Assembly (NCBI RefSeq): GCF_025685425.1
Contig: NZ_JAGTAS010000021.1
Coordinates: forward strand, 1 to 64,000
Length of the DNA stretch: 64,000 nt
From: Terriglobus albidus
GTDB lineage: Bacteria > Acidobacteriota > Terriglobia > Terriglobales > Acidobacteriaceae
Direction: 5' to 3'
In this document: piece by piece, positions 466 through 9,414 of the stretch
Layout of the letters: every line of letters starts with the position of its first letter
Numbering within the stretch: the first letter of the stretch is position 1
Made by a program: the position numbers and the translations under genes
Notes under the pieces: model-generated
What the model was told of the DNA's origin: nothing
Seen by the model: only the letters and a program-made list of their open reading frames with translations
Database searches by the model: none

Positions 466-804
466 ATGTCCGTACTGAAACCGGAGCCAGATGAGCTTGT
501 CCAGGGAACACTCGAGATGCTGATTCTGAAGACACTCGCGCTTGAGCCCATGCATGGCTACGGTGTTGGGTTACGCATTGAGCAGATGAGTGACGGTGTT
601 TTCCGTGTGAATGCAGGCTCTCTGCTGCCTGCTCTGAGCCGTATGGAACGTAGCGGCTATGTGAAGACCCAGTGGCGCCATACGGAGAACAACCGGCGCG
701 CGAAGTTCTACGAGATCACGGCGAAGGGCCGGAAGGCGCTGCAGCAGGAGAAAGAGCAGTGGGGACGCAGGATCTCCGCCATTGCACGCATTCTTGAGGC
801 GTAG
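466..804 (+). CDS. PadR family transcriptional regulator
   Basis: A 112-residue winged-helix regulator of the PadR family. The family signature is clear: a LVQGTLEMLILKTLAL start helix, the HGYGVGLRIEQMS segment, a SLLPALSRMERSGYV recognition region and the NNRRAKFYEITAKGRKAL wing. PadR proteins are usually small dimeric repressors that bind palindromes near their own promoters. The start at 466 follows AGGAGAG with good spacing. It sits immediately before an ADOP permease gene, an arrangement typical of Acidobacteriota and repeated on the opposite strand at 13754-16836. The likely target is this two-gene unit through the two palindromes at 401-456. The ligand or signal is unknown. Confidence 0.93.
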   Translation: MSVLKPEPDELVQGTLEMLILKTLALEPMHGYGVGLRIEQMSDGVFRVNAGSLLPALSRMERSGYVKTQWRHTENNRRAKFYEITAKGRKALQQEKEQWGRRISAIARILEA

Positions 805-837
805 TGGGTGAACGTAATTCCATTCAAAGGACTCTCT

Positions 838-3690
838 ATGAGTTGGCTGACGAATCTCGGGATGGGAATCAGGGCTCTGTTGCAACGGAGTCGCGTGGAA
901 CGCGAGCTGGACGATGAGTTGCAGGCTTATGTCGAGGCCGCGATCCAGGACAAACTGCGCAAGGGAATGAGTGTGGATACGGCACGACGTGCGGCGATGG
1001 CGGAGCTGGGCAGCAGCAACGCCGTGAAGCACAAGGTCTGGTCGTCGCGGTGGGAGTCATCTCTCGACAATCTCTTTCAGGATCTGCGTCTCGGTCTGCG
1101 CTCCTTGATGCGGAGGCCGGGGTTTACTGCTGTAGCTGTTGTGTCACTTGCTCTCGGCATTGGAGCCAACAGCGCGATCTTTACGCTGATCGATCAGGTT
1201 CTTCTCAAGAAGCTGCCGGTAAAGGATCCGCAGCAATTGGTCGCATTCGGCAACTCGATATACGGCGGAGTCGCGGGAGGCATCGATCTTGGGGCCTTCG
1301 GAGGCTTCTTCCCGTGGGATTTCTCTCGGCATTTGGAGATGAATCCCGGGCCATTCCAGGGAATTGCGGCCTATGGAAGTTTTTCGAACAAGACGAGTGT
1401 TCGTCTTTCAGGTACAGCGAATTCTGGTGCTCCTGCCACCCTTGCCCAGGCGACGCTCGTATCCGGCAACTACTTTCAGGTGCTTGGCGCGCAGCCGCTG
1501 CTTGGACGGGCGATTCTTCCCGTGGACGATGCCGTTCCAGGCAGCGGCGCAGTTGTGGTTGTCAGTCATCATTTCTGGCAAAGCGTACTATCATCCGACC
1601 CCGCCGCTATTGGCAGGACGCTCACCCTGAATGGCACGCCGTTTGAAGTCGTTGGCGTGATGCCTAAGGCCTTTCACGGATTCCGGCAGGAGCTGGAACC
1701 AACCGACCTATGGACCCCGATCAGCATGCAGGTGGTGGTGGTGCAGCATCCATCGATGCTGGCGCCGCAGTCAGGTCTGTACTTCCTACACCTCTTCGGG
1801 CGATTGAACGAACGAGCAGCGGCAAGTAAAGCCGGAGTTCTCGAAAGCCAGAACTGGCTGAATCAGCAGGTCCGCCTCGGTATTCTCGCCAGGGAGGGAG
1901 GCGTCATTACTCCGGAGCGCCGCAAGGAAATCGAGCAGACCAATGTGCCCCTGGTGCCGTCGGCGACTGGAGTCTCGCCGGTTCGAAGCCGGTATGGCGA
2001 CTCTCTTAAGATCCTGATGGCCGTGGTCGTCGTTGTGCTTCTGATTGCGTGTGCGAATCTGGCTAACTTTCTGCTCGCGCGCGGAGCTGCGCGGCAGCGT
2101 GAGGTTGCAACCCGGCTGGCCCTGGGATCCAGCAGGGCACGCATCGTCAGGCAGAGTCTCCTGGAGGCGATGCTGTTGTCCATGATCGGTGGCGCCATGG
2201 GACTTGGCCTGTCGTTCGCGGCAACGCGCGCGCTGATCGCGTTTGTAAGCCAGGGGAGCGGAACAACTGCCATGTGCGCGACGCCAAATATGGCTGTGCT
2301 TGGGTTCACCTTCGGCATCTCAATGGCTACGGCACTGTTATTTGGGCTCGCGCCTTCCATCGTTGCGGCGCGCCTTGGGGAGACGGGTTCCCTCAACACG
2401 GCGGTACGGACCGTTCAAGGCAGCGGGGGGAGAGCTTCACGATTCTGGCCCAAGATGCTGATTACCGCGCAGGTGATGTTGTCGCTGATTCTCCTTGTGG
2501 GGGCCGGGCTGCTGGTCCGTACGTTGCGCAATCTGCAGCAACAGGATTATGGGTTTGAGCGAACGCATCTATTGCTCGCAACCATCGACCCAAAGGTTGC
2601 CGGATATCAACCTCATCAGGTACCAGCGCTGCATCAACGTCTTCTCGAGCGGCTCTCCGCAATCCCCGGTGTTCGTTCCGCTGCGTTATCGGCGACACCG
2701 CCGATCAGTGAAGATACGTGGAGCTCGAATATCTCGCCGGCGGGCTACACGCCTGCTCCCAAGGAGAATATGGTTTCGGTGCTGAACCGAGTTTCAGGCA
2801 GATACTTCGAGACCGCCGGAATTGCGACCATCGCTGGAAGGCCGATTACACCGGAGGATACCGCCGGCGGCCTTAAGGTTGCGGTGATCAGCGAATCGAT
2901 TGCAAAACGCTACTTTCCGAAGGGCGAGGCGATTGGCCGCACGCTGACCTTGGGGATTGATAGCGTCCGCGGCCCATGGCAGATCGTCGGCATCGTGCGT
3001 GATACGAAGTCAGGAAATCCGCGAGAGACCGAACCGGTACGCATGACCTACATCCCGTTGGCGCAGATCGATCCGTATGCGCCTGTCCTATCTGGCGGAA
3101 CAACAGCTACAGACGCGAGCACTCCCGCTCGGGAGGAGAACCAGGACCGCTACGCCTATACCATCCTGCTTCGAACGACCGCCGATCCGGCAAAGACAAT
3201 TGCCGATCTCAGAGGCGCGGTTGCATCCATCGATTCCAAACTGCCGCTGGTGAGAGTTACAACGATGGAAGAGCAGGTATCGAGCCTGATGGCGAACGAT
3301 CAGTTGATCTCAATGCTTACGGGCGCTTTTTCCATTCTTGCGTTGCTGCTGGCTGCGATTGGCCTGTATGGCGTGATGAGTTATCACGTTGTTCAACGCA
3401 CGACAGAGATTGGCGTTCGCATTGCGCTCGGTGCACAGCTTAAGGCGGTGTTGTGGATGATCCTGCGAGAATCGCTCAGCTTACTGGCGGTAGGCGTGTG
3501 TCTCGGATTGCCGCTCACGTTGCTGGCGACCAGAAGCATCCGCAGCCAACTCTTTGGTCTGAGTGCGCTCGACCCACTCACGTTCGCGATCTCGATTGCG
3601 GTCGTTACCGGAATGACCGTGTTTGCAACCTGGTTTCCGGCGAGGCGGGCAGCCAGAATCGATCCCTTGACGGCTCTTCGATATGAATAG
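838..3690 (+). CDS. ADOP-type permease (MacB-like periplasmic core, FtsX domains)
   Basis: A 950-residue membrane protein of the acidobacterial duplicated orphan permease type. The N-terminus has a soluble helical part rich in charged residues (about residues 15-75), then a first transmembrane segment near SLALGIGANSAIFTLID, a large periplasmic MacB-like core, an FtsX-like membrane block around residues 400-510, a second periplasmic core, and a final FtsX block ending in FPARRAARIDPLTALRYE. There is no ATPase domain, so it is an orphan of the MacB exporter family with unproven transport activity. ATG 838 is preferred because AAAGGA lies seven bases ahead; an in-frame GTG at 808 would add ten residues. 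It follows padR by 33 bases and is probably co-transcribed with it. Confidence 0.9.
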   Translation: MSWLTNLGMGIRALLQRSRVERELDDELQAYVEAAIQDKLRKGMSVDTARRAAMAELGSSNAVKHKVWSSRWESSLDNLFQDLRLGLRSLMRRPGFTAVAVVSLALGIGANSAIFTLIDQVLLKKLPVKDPQQLVAFGNSIYGGVAGGIDLGAFGGFFPWDFSRHLEMNPGPFQGIAAYGSFSNKTSVRLSGTANSGAPATLAQATLVSGNYFQVLGAQPLLGRAILPVDDAVPGSGAVVVVSHHFWQSVLSSDPAAIGRTLTLNGTPFEVVGVMPKAFHGFRQELEPTDLWTPISMQVVVVQHPSMLAPQSGLYFLHLFGRLNERAAASKAGVLESQNWLNQQVRLGILAREGGVITPERRKEIEQTNVPLVPSATGVSPVRSRYGDSLKILMAVVVVVLLIACANLANFLLARGAARQREVATRLALGSSRARIVRQSLLEAMLLSMIGGAMGLGLSFAATRALIAFVSQGSGTTAMCATPNMAVLGFTFGISMATALLFGLAPSIVAARLGETGSLNTAVRTVQGSGGRASRFWPKMLITAQVMLSLILLVGAGLLVRTLRNLQQQDYGFERTHLLLATIDPKVAGYQPHQVPALHQRLLERLSAIPGVRSAALSATPPISEDTWSSNISPAGYTPAPKENMVSVLNRVSGRYFETAGIATIAGRPITPEDTAGGLKVAVISESIAKRYFPKGEAIGRTLTLGIDSVRGPWQIVGIVRDTKSGNPRETEPVRMTYIPLAQIDPYAPVLSGGTTATDASTPAREENQDRYAYTILLRTTADPAKTIADLRGAVASIDSKLPLVRVTTMEEQVSSLMANDQLISMLTGAFSILALLLAAIGLYGVMSYHVVQRTTEIGVRIALGAQLKAVLWMILRESLSLLAVGVCLGLPLTLLATRSIRSQLFGLSALDPLTFAISIAVVTGMTVFATWFPARRAARIDPLTALRYE

Positions 3691-4231
3691 GGAAGATACC
3701 GCCGGGTAACGCGCGTAGTAGAGATAAGCCGAATTGAATAAATGATTGAATAAATTCCTTGCCCCATTCTTGTCTAAGACAAAGTGTGGGGTCTCCAGCG
3801 AACTGCGTTCGCTCCATCGCGCTATGCGCGACTGCGTTGATCATGCGTTTCCCTGGGACCCGGGCTTCAGCGCTTCATTCGCGGTTTGATGCAAGGTTGC
3901 GGTTGTGGCATGCTTGCTGCGGCCGCTGAAGCGAAAACTCTGGCTGCTGTGCGGGGTTGAACGTGGAGTGCGGAGTTGCGAAGGCTTTTTGTATACCGGT
4001 GTATGACACGCAGGTGAATCACTCGTCTTATGCTGGTGTATGGTAGCGGCGGCAGACGAATGGATGCCTTCGAGGTGCTGGTATATCAAACAGATAGCTA
4101 TGCATTTTCCCCGAAAAATAAGGTAACCTGAAAATCCTTCCGATGAAATGAGTTGTACCAGCGGAACCTTTCATCCACCGCAGCACATAGGCAGAGCAAA
4201 CATAGACTCCCCTTATTTCGATAGGAACGAC
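3691..4231. other. Intergenic region with short AT-rich repeats
   Basis: No convincing gene is seen. Just after the ADOP gene there are two copies of ATTGAATAAA-like sequence (about 3734-3756), related to the AT-rich repeat at 37780-37855. A GCGCTATGCGC palindrome follows. The right part should hold the promoter of the stressosome-like operon, but no clear -35/-10 pair stands out. Confidence 0.4.
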
Positions 4232-5116
4232 ATGGTCAAACTTTTGAAGATGATGCGCGAAAATCAGGAGCGACTCCTGACGGACTGGTTAAACGGACTC
4301 AAGGCGATCGCACAGCGGCGTGATCTGATAAGCGATGTGGAGGTCAGGGAGCAGGCGAGAAAGATTTTGACCCTGATTTCAAATCCCCCTCCGGACACTG
4401 TGCTGGAAGATTTCTCCTCCGAAGGCTGGCAGACGGTGCGAGATCAGTTGATGGCGATCTCCATCTCGCGCGTAGCCCATGGCTCCTCACCTTCTGAGAC
4501 GGCGCAGTTCCTGTTTTCGCTGAAGCCGCCGATGTTCAAGCTCATCCGTGAGCAACTGACCACGACGCCGGACGAGCTTTTTCGCGAGATTGATGTCACC
4601 AATAATTTTATTGACGCCATGGCACTCCATATTGCGGAGAGCTACATCGAGAGCCGGGACAAGGTGATCGCGCGCCAGCAGGAGGAGATGCTTGAGCTAT
4701 CGACGCCGGTTGTGACGTTATGGGACGGCATTTTGGCCTTGCCTGTTATCGGTACGCTGGACAGTACGCGGGCACAGATGGTGATGGAGTCGCTTTTGCA
4801 GGCAATTGTGCAGACAAATTCGCGTTTTGCCATTCTCGACATCACCGGCGTGCCGACCGTGGATACGCTGGTGGCGCAGCATCTGCTGAAGACGATTACG
4901 GCCGCCCGGCTGATGGGCGCTGAGTGTATTCTGAGCGGCATCCGTCCGCAGATTGCGCAGACGATCGTGCACCTGGGCATCAACCTGAACGATATAGTTA
5001 CGCGTTCCAAGCTGGCGGATGCCTTCCGTCTGGCGCTGGACCGTAGCGGACGCACGGTGACGCAAAAGCCCGGCAACCACACGCCGGTTACCGCTCCCGC
5101 CGCAGGGGTGTCGTAA
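4232..5116 (+). CDS. rsbR: RsbR-like stressosome scaffold protein (STAS domain)
   Basis: A 294-residue protein with an N-terminal helical sensor-like region (about 1-150) and a C-terminal STAS domain (about 157-270). The STAS part carries the RsbR signatures DITGVPTVDT (residues 203-212) and LSGIRPQIAQT (234-244), which hold the conserved threonines that RsbT phosphorylates in RsbR proteins. In the known system RsbR and RsbS build the stressosome and sequester RsbT until stress. ATG 4232 is chosen because AGGA precedes it closely; an in-frame ATG at 4148 would add 28 residues of unconserved-looking sequence. The stop overlaps the next start by one base, so translation is coupled to rsbS. The N-terminal region has no recognisable heme or PAS motif, so the input signal is unknown. 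Confidence 0.88.
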   Translation: MVKLLKMMRENQERLLTDWLNGLKAIAQRRDLISDVEVREQARKILTLISNPPPDTVLEDFSSEGWQTVRDQLMAISISRVAHGSSPSETAQFLFSLKPPMFKLIREQLTTTPDELFREIDVTNNFIDAMALHIAESYIESRDKVIARQQEEMLELSTPVVTLWDGILALPVIGTLDSTRAQMVMESLLQAIVQTNSRFAILDITGVPTVDTLVAQHLLKTITAARLMGAECILSGIRPQIAQTIVHLGINLNDIVTRSKLADAFRLALDRSGRTVTQKPGNHTPVTAPAAGVS

Positions 5117-5508
5117 TGGAACGCATTCCGATTCTTCGTATCGGCACTCTGCTGCTGGTGACGATCCAGGTCGACCTTTATGACGACCTGGCGCTGCGGT
5201 TGCAGGACGACCTTTCGAATCGCATTGCGGAACTGGAGGCGACGGGGGTGTTAATCGATATCTCTGGGCTGGAGATTGTCGATTCCTTCATCGGGCGAAC
5301 GCTTGCTAATATTGCTGCAATTGCGCGCGTTCTGGATGCGGAGACGGTTGTCGTCGGCATGCAGCCTGCGGTCGCAATTACGCTTGTGGAGCTGGGGATG
5401 TCATTGCCTGGCATTCGCACAGCCTTGAACGTCGACCTGGGAATGGAGTATCTGCGGCAGGCGGCGACGGGTGAGAACGGTGTCGGAACAGATCATTACG
5501 CGGAGTGA
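5116..5508 (+). CDS. rsbS: RsbS-like stressosome STAS protein
   Basis: A 130-residue single STAS domain very like RsbS. It opens with ERIPILRIGTLLLVTIQ and contains IDISGLEIVDSFIGR, where Ser57 aligns with the serine phosphorylated by RsbT in Bacillus RsbS. VVVGMQPAVAITLVELGM is another strong RsbS signature. RsbS forms the stressosome core with RsbR and holds RsbT in the resting state. The start codon overlaps the rsbR stop, and its 3' end overlaps the rsbT reading frame, so the three are clearly one operon. Confidence 0.92.
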   Translation: MERIPILRIGTLLLVTIQVDLYDDLALRLQDDLSNRIAELEATGVLIDISGLEIVDSFIGRTLANIAAIARVLDAETVVVGMQPAVAITLVELGMSLPGIRTALNVDLGMEYLRQAATGENGVGTDHYAE

Positions 5509-5893
5509 GGTCCTGCCGATCAGGACTCAGATCGATCTGGTTCACGTGCGGCAGCGGGTGCGAACCTGGCTGTCGGAAGAGCGTTTTACTCTGATCGATC
5601 AGACCAAGATCGTGACGGCCGCCAGCGAGCTGGCGCGGAATGCACTGGAGCATGGCGGGGGCGGTGAGATGGAGATGTCGCTGCTCGCCGTCGGTGCGCG
5701 GAAGGGGATACGGCTTAAGTTCTCCGACCATGGGCCCGGAATCGCGGATATCTCCAAGGCCATGAAGGATGGTTACACCACGGCAGGGGGGATGGGGCTC
5801 GGCCTGAGCGGCAGCAGGCGGTTGATGAGCGAGTTCGAGATCCAGTCGTCCCCTGAGTCTGGGACGGTCGTGACTGTCACCCGATGGAAATAA
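5471..5893 (+). CDS. rsbT: RsbT-like serine/threonine kinase of the stressosome
   Basis: A 140-residue GHKL ATPase with all nucleotide-binding boxes: SELARNALEHGGGG (N box), DHGPGIAD (G1) and GGMGLGLSGSRRL (G2). RsbT phosphorylates RsbS and RsbR and, once released, activates a partner protein. The reading frame opens with GTG at 5471 inside the rsbS end; GTG 5480 is an equally plausible start and would remove three residues. It lies between rsbS and two further genes that each contain their own RsbT-like ATPase domain, so three related ATPases may compete for one stressosome. Confidence 0.9.
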   Translation: MRTVSEQIITRSEVLPIRTQIDLVHVRQRVRTWLSEERFTLIDQTKIVTAASELARNALEHGGGGEMEMSLLAVGARKGIRLKFSDHGPGIADISKAMKDGYTTAGGMGLGLSGSRRLMSEFEIQSSPESGTVVTVTRWK

Positions 5894-5896
5894 GCT

Positions 5897-6910
5897 ATGT
5901 CCGTGTTACACCGACGGATTCCGATTCTGATCAATGACCAGAGTTGCATCGGGCACGCACGGCGACAGGCGGCGGCGATCGCGGAGTCGCTCGCCTTCAG
6001 TGAAACCGCCGCCGGGAATCTGGGAATTATCGTTACCGAAGCTGCCCGTAACATTGCACTGCACGCCGGCAGTGGGGAGATCGTCCTGGCCCCATGGACG
6101 ATGGACGGGCATGTAGGGGTGGATGTGCTGGCTCTGGACCGAGGCCCTGGAATCGCCGATATCGCGAGGGCCCTGGAAGATGGTTTCTCCACCGCGGGTA
6201 CTGCCGGAACGGGACTGGGGGCGATGCGGCGGCTAGCGCAGGAGTTCCAGGTCTACTCCATACTTCGAGCGGGAACGGTTGTCTTTGCTCGCGTCTTTGC
6301 CAGACAGAATACGAATATAGCTGCGGTCCGCGGCATCAGCCGTGTAGGTGTCGTGAACCTCGCAATGCAGGGAGAGGAGCATTGCGGCGACGCCTGGAAG
6401 GTTGTCCACTCGGGCGGGAGAAGCCTTTACATGGTCGCCGACGGCCTGGGACACGGGAAAGACGCTGCCCTGGCTTCGAGCCGTGCGTGCGAGGTGCTGG
6501 AGCAGAATCCGAGCCTTTTTCCGGAACAGCTTCTGGATGAGATGCATCGGGCATTGCGAAAGACACGAGGAGCAGCGATCTCGATTGCGACGCTCAATGT
6601 CGGTCAGCGCACCCTGCACTACGCCGGTGCTGGCAATATTGCGGGAGTGCTCCATGCCGGCAGGTTGCACCATAATCTGGTCTCGATGAATGGAACGGTC
6701 GGACATGTGGTAGGCCGTGTGCGAGAGTTCCTGTATACATGGGAAGGAGAGGCAATTCTCATTCTGTCTTCCGACGGTCTTAGCTCCCGCTGGACCCCAG
6801 AGCAATATCCAGGTCTGCTCGGAAAACACCCTGCCCTGATTGCCGCGGTGCTCTATCGCGATCATTGCAGGGGCCGTGATGATGTCACGGTCCTCGTTGT
6901 ACGTATTTGA
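5897..6910 (+). CDS. RsbT-like ATPase fused to RsbX/SpoIIE-type PP2C phosphatase
   Basis: A 337-residue fusion. Residues 1-135 form a GHKL ATPase with TEAARNIALHAGSG, DRGPGIADI and GTAGTGLGAMRRL. Residues about 150-337 form an RsbX-like PP2C phosphatase: Asp165 in GDAW, the MVADGLGHGKDA motif (Asp182), SSDGL (291-295) and the terminal RDDVTVLVV motif carry the metal-binding aspartates. In Bacillus, RsbX dephosphorylates RsbR and RsbS and resets the stressosome, and is a stand-alone protein. Here the phosphatase travels with an RsbT-like domain that could target it to the scaffold. The gene starts three bases after rsbT, without a clear Shine-Dalgarno site. Confidence 0.88.
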   Translation: MSVLHRRIPILINDQSCIGHARRQAAAIAESLAFSETAAGNLGIIVTEAARNIALHAGSGEIVLAPWTMDGHVGVDVLALDRGPGIADIARALEDGFSTAGTAGTGLGAMRRLAQEFQVYSILRAGTVVFARVFARQNTNIAAVRGISRVGVVNLAMQGEEHCGDAWKVVHSGGRSLYMVADGLGHGKDAALASSRACEVLEQNPSLFPEQLLDEMHRALRKTRGAAISIATLNVGQRTLHYAGAGNIAGVLHAGRLHHNLVSMNGTVGHVVGRVREFLYTWEGEAILILSSDGLSSRWTPEQYPGLLGKHPALIAAVLYRDHCRGRDDVTVLVVRI

Positions 6911-6915
6911 CCTGC

Positions 6916-8037
6916 ATGGAAAAAAGTCAGCGGCTACCTATTTATGCCATCCACCTGCGCTATGACCGCAACGTAATGCACGCGCGGCAGTATGCCCGCG
7001 ATGTTGCAGCACTGCTGGGGTTCAGCTACCAGGAGCAGGTGCGGTTGGCGACTGCAACCTCCGAGCTGTCGCGAAACGCCTTTCGCTATGCCGGGGGAGG
7101 GACGGTCACGTTTCTGCTGACCCGGCGGCAGCCACAGATCCTGATGGTGGTGGTGGAAGACAATGGGCCGGGAATTCCGAACCTGGATGAGATTCTGGAT
7201 GGCCGCTACCAGTCAATGACCGGCCTGGGCAAGGGGATTACAGGGACGAAAAACCTGATGGACCACTTCCGGATCACCTCATCGCGCTCCGGCACCGTGG
7301 CGGAGGCCGGCAAGCTGCTGCCTGGACTACAGCCCCTCTATGACGAGGCCGCAGTGCTGAAGATTGCGGGCGAACTGATCCGTAAAAGTATTGCTGACCC
7401 GTTCCAGGAGCTGGAACAGAGAAACCAGGAGCTGTTGCGAGCACTTGCAGAACTCCGTGAGAAGCAGACGCAGTTTGTCGAGTTGAACCGCAAGCTGGAA
7501 GAGCTTTCGCTACAGGACCCATTGACCGGTGTCGCCAACCGGCGTTCCTTCGACCGCGGACTCGATCGCGAGTGGAGCGGCGCCATGCGTACGCAGCAAC
7601 CGCTCGCGCTGTTGATGATCGATGTCGATTTCTTCAAGTTATTGAACGATCGGCACGGCCATCGTTATGGAGATGAAGCCCTGATGCTGCTGGCGGAGGC
7701 ATTGCAAAAGGGTCTGCCGCGCAGCAGCGATCTGGTTGCCCGCTATGGCGGTGAGGAGTTTGCTGCAGTGTTGCCCTTCACCAGCGCCAGCGAGGCTGCC
7801 GAAGTGGCTGCCAGAATGCACGCAGCGGTTGCAGCGCAGAAGATCGCACACGAAACTCTAATCGGACCCTTCGTGACCATCAGCATTGGAGCCGCGGTCT
7901 GTGAGCCGCCGTATGACGAATCGATTGCGCGGCTGGGATACGGCGTACTGGTAGAGGCTGCTGACCGGGCACTTTATCTGGCGAAGGAGAGAGGCCGTAA
8001 CCGGACTGAGTTCGGTGAGGTTGTCGCTCCCGCCTGA
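6916..8037 (+). CDS. RsbT-like ATPase fused to GGDEF diguanylate cyclase
   Basis: A 373-residue protein with an N-terminal GHKL ATPase (N box ELSRNAF, Asn54; G1 EDNGPGIP; G2 GLGKGITGTKNL), a coiled-coil linker at about 163-198, and a C-terminal GGDEF domain from DPLTGVANRR onward. The active site is intact, GGEEF at 278-282, and RSSD at 269-272 sits five residues before it, matching an RxxD inhibitory site. The predicted reaction is 2 GTP to c-di-GMP with product inhibition. As last gene of the stressosome-like cluster it is the likely output, replacing the RsbU/sigma-B branch. Start at ATG 6916; a TTG at 6907 overlapping the upstream stop is an alternative. Confidence 0.9.
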   Translation: MEKSQRLPIYAIHLRYDRNVMHARQYARDVAALLGFSYQEQVRLATATSELSRNAFRYAGGGTVTFLLTRRQPQILMVVVEDNGPGIPNLDEILDGRYQSMTGLGKGITGTKNLMDHFRITSSRSGTVAEAGKLLPGLQPLYDEAAVLKIAGELIRKSIADPFQELEQRNQELLRALAELREKQTQFVELNRKLEELSLQDPLTGVANRRSFDRGLDREWSGAMRTQQPLALLMIDVDFFKLLNDRHGHRYGDEALMLLAEALQKGLPRSSDLVARYGGEEFAAVLPFTSASEAAEVAARMHAAVAAQKIAHETLIGPFVTISIGAAVCEPPYDESIARLGYGVLVEAADRALYLAKERGRNRTEFGEVVAPA

Positions 8038-8133
8038 GGCGGTGTGCACGAGTCCTTCCAGACGGGCTCCAATGTCTCTCAGTCACAAGATGACGCATCA
8101 TGAAACAGTAGATCGCCTGCATCTAATGCCAGC

Positions 8134-9414
8134 GTGACGGAGCAGCAGCAAAGGTCAGATCGTCAGCATACTGTTATCAGATCGCTCGGGCTTGGGCTGA
8201 TTACAGGGGCGGCTGATGACGACTGTTCCGCCATCGGGACTTATGCCCAGGCAGGAGCGCAACTGGGCTACAAAGCCTTGTGGACTGCACCGGTTACCTT
8301 CCCCATGATGGTGGCGGTGGTCTACCTTTCGGGCAAGCTGGGACAGGTCACCGGGCAAGGACTCTTTAATGTTCTGCGAACTCATTACTCGCACCGGTTT
8401 GTCTACGTGGTGCTTGCAGGGGTAGTGGCAGGGAACACGATTGAAGCCGGGGCTGATATCGGCGGCATGGCTGCAGCGATGGGAATCCTTCTGCATTGGC
8501 CTCAGTGGGTTCTGGTTCTTTGTATTACTGCGGCAACGCTCGTTCTTCAGATATGGGGTTCTTATCGGGTCATCCGCAATATCTTCCGCGTGATCGCCCT
8601 ATCGTTGACCGCCTACATCTTCTCGGCATTTCTGGCTCACCCGCAGGTTGGCGAAGCGGTGCGCGGGACTCTGGTGCCATCGCTTCGCTTCAACAAAGAG
8701 ACGCTTTCCATTCTCGTCGCCATTGTTGGGACATCGCTCTCTGCCTATCTGTACACCTGGCAGTCGAACCAGGAGGTCGAAGAAAAAGAAGAAGCCGGAA
8801 AGCACACCGTTCGCGAGCGCCGGGGCGCATCAGAGGGTGAACTTCGAAGCGGCCTATGGGACGTTGTGTTTGGAATGCTGTTTTCGAATGTCGTTATGTA
8901 CTTCATCATTCTGGCGACGGCCGCGACACTGTATGCCTCAGGGAAGCACGACATCACAACGGCGGCGGAGGCGGCGCAGTCCCTGACGCCATTGGCGGGA
9001 CGTGCCGCTGGTCTGTTGTTTACGCTTGGAATTATCGGTGTCGGATTTCTGGCTATCCCGGTGATGACGACCGGAGCCGCGTACGACATCTGCCAGTCGC
9101 TTGGCTGGAAGAATGGCCTCGCCTATCCGCCTTCCAAAGCAAAGGGATTCTATGGTGTCATTACGGCGCTGACCCTGGTGGCCATGTCTTTGAACTTCCT
9201 CGGGATCAATCCAATGCGGGCGCTGGTCATCTCGGGCATTGTGCAGGGCTTCTCAACGCCTCCCCTGATGATGTTGATCATGATCATGACCAACAAGCCT
9301 TCCATCATGGGAGAGCAGGTGAATGGGCGAGTGGCGAATATCTTTGGGTGGGCAACGACACTTGCAATCTTCTCTGCCAGCGCGGGACTCGTTGTCACCT
9401 GGTTTCTGCAATAG
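8134..9414 (+). CDS. Nramp-like divalent metal transporter (atypical motifs)
   Basis: A 426-residue polytopic protein of the Nramp/MntH superfamily with about eleven hydrophobic segments. In place of the DPGN motif of the first helix it has GAADDDCSAIGTYAQAG (residues 25-41), and the sixth-helix MPH motif is replaced by AIPVMTTGAAYD. Both helices form the metal site in classical Nramp proteins, so the substrate may differ from Mn or Fe. Related DDxSxxGTY proteins are annotated as Nramp family. The start is GTG 8134. It lies 96 bases after the diguanylate cyclase gene and may or may not belong to that operon. Confidence 0.85.
   Translation: MTEQQQRSDRQHTVIRSLGLGLITGAADDDCSAIGTYAQAGAQLGYKALWTAPVTFPMMVAVVYLSGKLGQVTGQGLFNVLRTHYSHRFVYVVLAGVVAGNTIEAGADIGGMAAAMGILLHWPQWVLVLCITAATLVLQIWGSYRVIRNIFRVIALSLTAYIFSAFLAHPQVGEAVRGTLVPSLRFNKETLSILVAIVGTSLSAYLYTWQSNQEVEEKEEAGKHTVRERRGASEGELRSGLWDVVFGMLFSNVVMYFIILATAATLYASGKHDITTAAEAAQSLTPLAGRAAGLLFTLGIIGVGFLAIPVMTTGAAYDICQSLGWKNGLAYPPSKAKGFYGVITALTLVAMSLNFLGINPMRALVISGIVQGFSTPPLMMLIMIMTNKPSIMGEQVNGRVANIFGWATTLAIFSASAGLVVTWFLQ

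Follow-up and report, generated by a model that had tools for sequence, protein, structure and literature searches.

A predicted stressosome-type operon of Terriglobus albidus in which a GGDEF domain takes the place of a histidine kinase behind an RsbT-like ATPase

The stretch analyzed here, called the window, comprises 64,000 nucleotides of Terriglobus albidus (Acidobacteriota), positions 1 to 64,000 of the forward strand of contig NZ_JAGTAS010000021.1 in assembly GCF_025685425.1. At 4232 to 8037 it carries five plus-strand genes, overlapping or 3 to 5 bases apart, that encode homologs of the stressosome proteins RsbR, RsbS, and RsbT, an ATPase-phosphatase fusion (here called X), and an ATPase fused through a stalk to a predicted diguanylate cyclase (here called D). 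The genes, and the parts of D, were as follows.

4232..5116, plus strand: RsbR, an RsbRD_N sensor domain followed by STAS (Pfam, alignment to solved RsbR), with Ser178 and Thr212 (counting from 4232) as putative phospho-sites
5116..5508, plus strand: RsbS, a lone STAS domain with putative phospho-site Ser57 (Pfam, structure-chain alignment, 61-row alignment)
5471..5893, plus strand: RsbT, a stand-alone Bergerat ATPase/kinase; start GTG at 5471 or 5480, overlapping rsbS
5897..6910, plus strand: X, an RsbT-like ATPase with an RsbX/SpoIIE-type PP2C phosphatase (Pfam, structure-chain match)
6916..8037, plus strand: D, an RsbT-like ATPase, a coiled-coil stalk, and a GGDEF diguanylate cyclase domain (ATG at 6916)
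6919..7311, plus strand: ATPase domain of D; Glu49, Asn53, D81-x-G83-x-G85, G104-x-G106, and alpha1 Arg23
7396..7506, plus strand: stalk helix of D, residues 160 to 196 when numbering starts at 6919; D proteins of the histidine-kinase type have a homologous stalk, and the homology ends at about this point
7513..8004, plus strand: GGDEF domain of D; inhibitory-site motif RSSD at 268 to 271 and GGEEF at 277 to 281

The first-pass annotation, made from the sequence alone, had listed the same five genes, and the reading frames, the Pfam domains, and the matches to chains of solved structures all agreed with it. By Pfam, RsbR contained RsbRD_N (E value of 3.9e-20) and STAS (5.9e-16), RsbS contained STAS (1e-8), RsbT HATPase_c (4.3e-13), X HATPase_c_2 (1.3e-8) and SpoIIE/PP2C (3.3e-10), and D HATPase_c (7.9e-9) and GGDEF (1.2e-43). 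RsbR could instead start at an ATG at 4148, but in L118 the orthologous frame extends only 22 residues upstream of its matched region, compared to 28 here. The annotation had also noted the lack of a sigma factor, of RsbV/RsbW, and of RsbU, and indeed Pfam found none of these among the frames at 4148 to 9414. A promoter and terminator scan of the locus gave scores below the shuffled means. Since the same genes occur in three other genomes (G241, G610, and G629), with ratios of nonsynonymous to synonymous substitution rates (dN/dS) of 0.04 to 0.16 in every gene, the five-gene operon is not a chance arrangement.

Over their STAS regions, RsbS and RsbR matched the corresponding chains of solved stressosome structures (RsbS, E value of 1.3e-27; RsbR, 3.4e-34). 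Motifs were counted in 61 operons, i.e., the window and the 60 complete relative operons described below. RsbS Ser57 aligned with the serine of stressosome RsbS, and its column was conserved in at least 95% of the 61 rows; the columns of RsbR Ser178 (a serine instead of a threonine) and Thr212 were also conserved. The structures matched by RsbR included chains with Thr, Ala, or Glu at the Ser178 position, which were read as phospho-site variants. We take the RsbS serine to be the counterpart of S59 in Bacillus subtilis, and the two RsbR sites to be those of T171 and T205. With the serine of RsbS, the N-domain and STAS sites of RsbR, and the Bergerat motifs of RsbT all present, the three proteins would qualify as a stressosome RsbR-RsbS-RsbT set. 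The PP2C domain of X matched an RsbX chain (3w40, E value of 6.2e-11) and the SpoIIE-type phosphatase 3zt9, and its position beside R-S-T is that of an rsbRSTX module, although X is not a single-domain protein. Neither the RsbU, RsbV, RsbW, and downstream sigma factor of a SigB general-stress operon nor an RsbU_N domain on the cyclase, as in the Moorella protein MtG, was present. D carries GGEEF and an RxxD motif (RSSD), both aligned to the structure 3bre, as expected of a diguanylate cyclase. Gene set and domains thus support the proposal in the first-pass annotation of a stressosome-type module with a putative diguanylate cyclase as its adjacent output.

In each of the three ATPase classes, the Glu, Asp, and GxG of the ATP site, together with one arginine of helix alpha1 (residue 22 in RsbT, 22 in the ATPase of X, and 23 in D), were found in 61/61 operons, and the Asn and first Gly of the G1 motif in 61/61 for RsbT and D and 60/61 for X. 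The arginine falls on residue 20 of SpoIIAB, which we assume to be a partner-contact residue, when the RsbT-SpoIIAB alignment is extended by two residues, and it is absent from both RsbW-like proteins of the same genome. A quick tree of 16 of the 61 operons placed the three classes in separate groups (support of 90 for RsbT, 100 for X, and 88 for D). Compared to the three orthologs, dN/dS was 0.10 to 0.12 for RsbR, 0.07 to 0.09 for RsbS, 0.10 to 0.14 for RsbT, and 0.14 to 0.15 for X; within D, it was 0.04 to 0.07 for the ATPase, 0.07 to 0.16 for the stalk, and 0.06 to 0.08 for the GGDEF domain. The predicted phospho-sites and catalytic motifs are, by these measures, intact and under purifying selection.

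A structure model of D, built on a 22-row alignment, contained a single stalk helix (residues 161 to 197) running to the GGDEF domain, with a predicted local distance difference test score (pLDDT) rising from 70 to 91 along the helix and mostly above 90 in the GGDEF domain. The nearest solved structures were WspR-type proteins, including a fusion of the GCN4 zipper to WspR, and the best match in both sequence and fold was 3bre (PA3702, which we take to be WspR itself). GGDEF domains of the WspR type become active upon pairing by a coiled coil. The Pseudomonas protein resembles D in having a stalk followed by a GGDEF domain with RxxD and GGEEF, but it is governed by a receiver domain and not by an ATPase.

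Relatives were sought with the ATPase and stalk part of D. At the level of the phylum, 95 of 396 genomes gave a match (E value of 0.001), which reached the stalk in 14; 20 of the 95 were collected, namely, the 13 stalk-reaching genomes besides that of the window and 7 others. In the family, 71 of 398 genomes matched at 1e-10, 60 of them into the stalk. Left out of the family set were G521 (a stalk-reaching frame of 735 amino acids), G486 (181 amino acids), and G689 (106 amino acids), the latter two not among the stalk-reaching 60. Within the genus, 8 of 19 genomes matched, and these, the window's genome included, were divided between GGDEF forms (4) and kinase forms (4), leaving 11 without the module. 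The ATPase-stalk module is, therefore, widespread but patchy in this acidobacterial family. In total, 72 loci were collected, of which 60 held all five genes in the order R-S-T-X-D and 12 were cut by contig ends or lacked a part.

In these 60 complete relative operons, D ended in a histidine kinase in 57 and in a GGDEF domain in only 3 (G241, G610, and G629). The kinase-type D proteins mostly carried one or two receiver domains, HisKA was found in all 12 scanned with Pfam, and a same-strand gene with a receiver domain, usually a receiver-histidine kinase (REC-HK) fusion, came after D in 50 of the 57 kinase operons. This downstream gene was found in none of the three relative GGDEF operons and is also missing at the window. 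The first-pass annotation had pointed to three RsbT-like ATPases that could compete for one scaffold as an arrangement not known to be described. That such a set is peculiar to this locus is not supported: all 60 complete relative operons have it, as do operons on plasmids of Sphingomonas, Deinococcus, and Salipiger. What is peculiar to the locus is the exchange of kinase for cyclase at the end of the stalk, together with the missing REC-HK gene. A gene order unique to this genome, which the annotation had named as a refutation, is not what was found: counting the window's own genome, the exact GGDEF form is present in 4 of the genus's 19 genomes.

Outside the phylum, 38 of 398 Pseudomonadota genomes matched at 1e-20, and the 10 stalk-reaching proteins all ended in histidine kinases (phmmer assigned eight, and two were judged by eye). 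Among plasmids, 60 records matched; 6 were examined, and the five-gene order was present on 4 of them, from Sphingomonas aliaeris, Deinococcus radiodurans (MP1), Deinococcus sp. KNUC1210, and Salipiger, with a kinase as D in all. A Paraburkholderia plasmid had a partial gene set, in which D carried a kinase domain, and a Halanaeroarchaeum plasmid (L242, 2839 to 8357) encoded PAS/STAS, STAS, RsbT, and PP2C proteins followed by a large separate PAS/histidine-kinase gene. On MP1 (L239, 3134 to 8938), the operon comprised six genes, R-S-T-X-D(kinase)-REC-HK, whose annotation names no more than STAS, anti-sigma, and ATP-binding proteins, in a host that is a model stress-resistant bacterium. The S. 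aliaeris and MP1 operons thus share gene order and the ATPase-stalk module of D with the window, but their output is a histidine kinase with a receiver domain, to which D. radiodurans adds the REC-HK gene. No GGDEF-type D was seen outside one genus in the genomes, loci, and plasmids examined. Likewise, among the 80 top matches listed in a search for other ATPase-GGDEF fusions, ranked by whole-protein similarity and hence mostly by the GGDEF domain, none of the 78 loci besides L038 and L039 had an operon domain beyond GGDEF (phmmer, 1e-3).

Some of the collected loci were unusual. In G231, rsbR (L130, 3017 to 4111) and the remaining genes of its operon are on opposite strands. A 386-amino-acid D in G531 (L167), which by length could have been a second origin of the GGDEF form, was rejected, as it is a kinase-type D that is split between frames of 386 and 322 amino acids; that genome is incomplete, and the split is either a true break or an assembly error. 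L137, a weak match to the ATPase of D, had no N-terminal ATPase by Pfam and was kept in the alignment of D proteins but out of the counts.

The exchange could be located in this alignment of 67 D proteins (the window, the three other GGDEF forms, and 63 kinase forms including the doubtful L137). The window's D and the kinase-type D proteins were colinear and nearly gapless from the ATPase through the stalk, where N169, E171, L172, L176, L179, N190, and L193 were common to more than 90% of the proteins. The homology ended at about residues 193 to 196, with identity near zero from about 195, and beyond this junction the kinases continue with the phospho-acceptor helix and the window's D with the DPLTG of its GGDEF domain. 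Six lone columns past the junction still agreed (198, 202, 206, 211, 218, and 229), which was taken for chance or for a helix pattern in a gap-free stretch.

Trees were made from the other operon domains, a careful one of 45 of the 61 operons and a quick one of all 61, both midpoint-rooted. The four GGDEF rows formed one clade (100/100) on a long stem (0.61), nested within a 19-row clade (100/100) that also held 15 kinase operons, and the quick tree agreed on both the clade and its nesting. Because operons from the phylum's other families branch outside the 19-row clade, the kinase form is likely ancestral. Together, these alignments and trees point to an output swap, from phosphorelay to cyclic di-GMP (c-di-GMP), in which a GGDEF domain replaced the histidine kinase at the junction of stalk and catalytic domain in an ancestor shared by a few species within a single genus. 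A search for the donor gave Noviherbaspirillum as the best outside match by score (52% identity), and the genome's own paralogs reached at most 45%.

Across the whole 6.1-Mb genome, GGDEF had 20 matches, counting D, and PilZ had 3, of which two lie in frames some 1500 amino acids long that may encode cellulose synthases. RsbU_N had no match anywhere in the genome, although the B. subtilis control was positive, and RsbT is therefore without its canonical target. Two pairs of an RsbW-like and a STAS protein (C39:180431-181173, L003, and C19:10613-11338, L007, the latter with SpoIIE phosphatase matches on both sides) and eight further SpoIIE-domain matches were found elsewhere; a separate partner-switching pathway may therefore operate in parallel.

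Stressosome control of c-di-GMP is not new. That stressosomes are linked to second messengers in other phyla had been noted in the first-pass annotation, and such links are known or predicted in Moorella, Vibrio, and others. In Moorella thermoacetica, RsbU_N and RsbT control the GGDEF protein MtG (recounted in PMC12143880), and a Vibrio stressosome is described in PMC4976288. The Moorella system resembles the present one in placing an RsbRST-type module over a GGDEF protein with a predicted coiled-coil linker (PMC12143880, PMC4976288), but MtG has an RsbU_N and GAF head that is reached by a separate RsbT, while D carries its own RsbT-like ATPase in a genome without an RsbU_N match. For rsbRSTX modules, eleven downstream architectures have been described, including c-di-GMP and phosphorelay outputs; most of the downstream proteins lack RsbU_N, and RsbT-dependent phosphorylation was offered as a possibility (Heinz 2022, PMC9237108). 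The modules of Vibrio, Chromobacterium, Herbaspirillum, and Ruegeria in that paper share with this operon a minimal R-S-T-X set with an interchangeable adjoining output, but in the globin set of that paper X is a single-domain PP2C and RsbR has a globin, in contrast to the ATPase on X, the RsbRD_N RsbR, and the output fused to an RsbT-like ATPase seen here. No title listed in searches of the open-access literature concerned acidobacterial stressosomes or the fusion of GGDEF to an RsbT-like ATPase, and neither the ATPase-stalk fusion nor the kinase-to-cyclase switch was met in the literature searched; the excerpts of PMC6848086 and PMC3999984 did not mention this arrangement.

Gene set, intact motifs, common ATPase domain, junction, nested clade, and selection are all read from sequence, and from them we infer complex formation, capture and release of D, the direction of control, and cyclase activity. 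The reading that we favor, and consider slightly more probable than all others together, is that a stressosome-type partner switch captures D by its own ATPase domain and frees it upon stress, leading to c-di-GMP. RsbR and RsbS would form the STAS scaffold, which at rest would hold the RsbT-like ATPase domains, including the N-terminal one of D, and so keep the GGDEF domains unpaired. When RsbR senses stress, RsbT would phosphorylate RsbS at Ser57 and RsbR at Ser178 and Thr212, and the freed D could then pair through its stalk helices, with the GGDEF dimer making c-di-GMP. The third ATPase domain would take the PP2C of X to the scaffold, where dephosphorylation would reset the system. D would thereby unite in one chain what Moorella and Bacillus divide between RsbT and an RsbU_N-headed effector. 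MtG and the coiled coil that RsbU linkers form upon RsbT binding are precedents for such control (PMC12143880).

Several observations weigh against this reading. In the model of D, the ATPase part was poor (block pLDDT of at most 66), and its link to the stalk could not be seen. Two of the 72 loci, L120 (4772 to 7584) and L209 (4200 to 6700), had X and a kinase-type D, but R, S, and T were all missing from the 4 to 5 kb collected upstream; their scaffold may be distant or lacking, and X and D may therefore not always depend on an adjoining one. At position 112, D has Asn in the GGDEF clade and Arg in 55 of 57 kinase-type proteins. RsbS of the GGDEF form also differs from 57/57 kinase rows (M21L and H22Y), and co-adaptation of these changes with R112N is possible. 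The intact ATPase motifs of D are as compatible with a kinase as with a domain that is captured, and in Vibrio vulnificus RsbT did not interact with the downstream protein D1 (PMC9237108).

The chief rival, which we consider rather unlikely, holds that D is never on the scaffold and that released RsbT instead pairs with its ATPase domain and activates it. Bergerat anti-sigma kinases dimerize, and homology to SpoIIAB is consistent with such pairing, as is the separate RsbT gene beside D in the operons read, where the 60 were chosen as complete and give no independent count. In Bacillus, RsbT activates its effector by binding the N-domain and linker (PMC12143880). For a mere docking domain, however, the alpha1 arginine and the ATP site of D, as conserved as those of RsbT itself, would be needless. 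With still lower probability, the ATPase of D is a kinase for its operon partners, or D is phosphorylated by them, so that ATP level or phosphorylation, and not capture, would adjust the cyclase. The intact catalytic Glu and ATP motifs speak for this, and RsbT-dependent phosphorylation of downstream proteins has been suggested (PMC9237108), as the Moorella control has been described as phosphorylation of the cyclase (PMC4976288).

GGDEF domains are promiscuous, with 20 in this genome, and the X-D pairs of L120 and L209 stand without nearby R-S-T, so a cyclase that shares the operon but is functionally unrelated to the stressosome was also considered; this is very improbable, as D retains the RsbT-like domain and stalk of kinase-type D, at the same gene place and under purifying selection. 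The presence of the form in just 4 genomes among those searched might suggest a decaying or assembly-made chimera, an explanation that is for practical purposes refuted by its occurrence in four separate genomes, with dN/dS of at most 0.16 in every gene and domain and flanks conserved in three relatives.

A wider view can be put forward tentatively, with somewhat less than even confidence: a writer (RsbT), an eraser (the ATPase-PP2C), and an effector (the ATPase-stalk-enzyme) might compete for one STAS scaffold through the same kind of ATPase domain, with the output set by this competition. The ATPase-stalk part would be a portable input cartridge, used first in histidine kinases and then, in one genus, in a diguanylate cyclase, turning a phosphorelay stress pathway into a c-di-GMP pathway in one step. 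As to how stressosomes reach outputs without RsbU_N, an effector that has an RsbT-like domain of its own is a further candidate besides RsbT-dependent phosphorylation, and it would extend to many operons, from three phyla or more, of which we found no study. Where the kinase forms lead into an uncharacterized phosphorelay, the GGDEF version has an output that can be assayed, as cyclase activity or with a c-di-GMP biosensor. By its clean exchange at the stalk junction, the operon also provides a natural test of whether coiled-coil linkers make inputs exchangeable among phosphatases, kinases, and cyclases, as has been proposed (PMC12143880).

Finally, the genes around the operon were compared to those at the three orthologous loci. 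An Nramp-family transporter gene (8134 to 9414) lies between D and a convergent xanthine-dehydrogenase-like gene, which directly follows D at the three orthologous loci. As the Nramp gene had no match in those stretches, it was rejected as a sixth gene of the operon, and it was either inserted at the window or lost at the other three. Upstream (466 to 3690), a permease gene, presumably MacB/FtsX-like, is also found at the three other GGDEF-type loci. It is preceded by a PadR regulator, which is present in L118 as well, the other two orthologous stretches ending short of that position.

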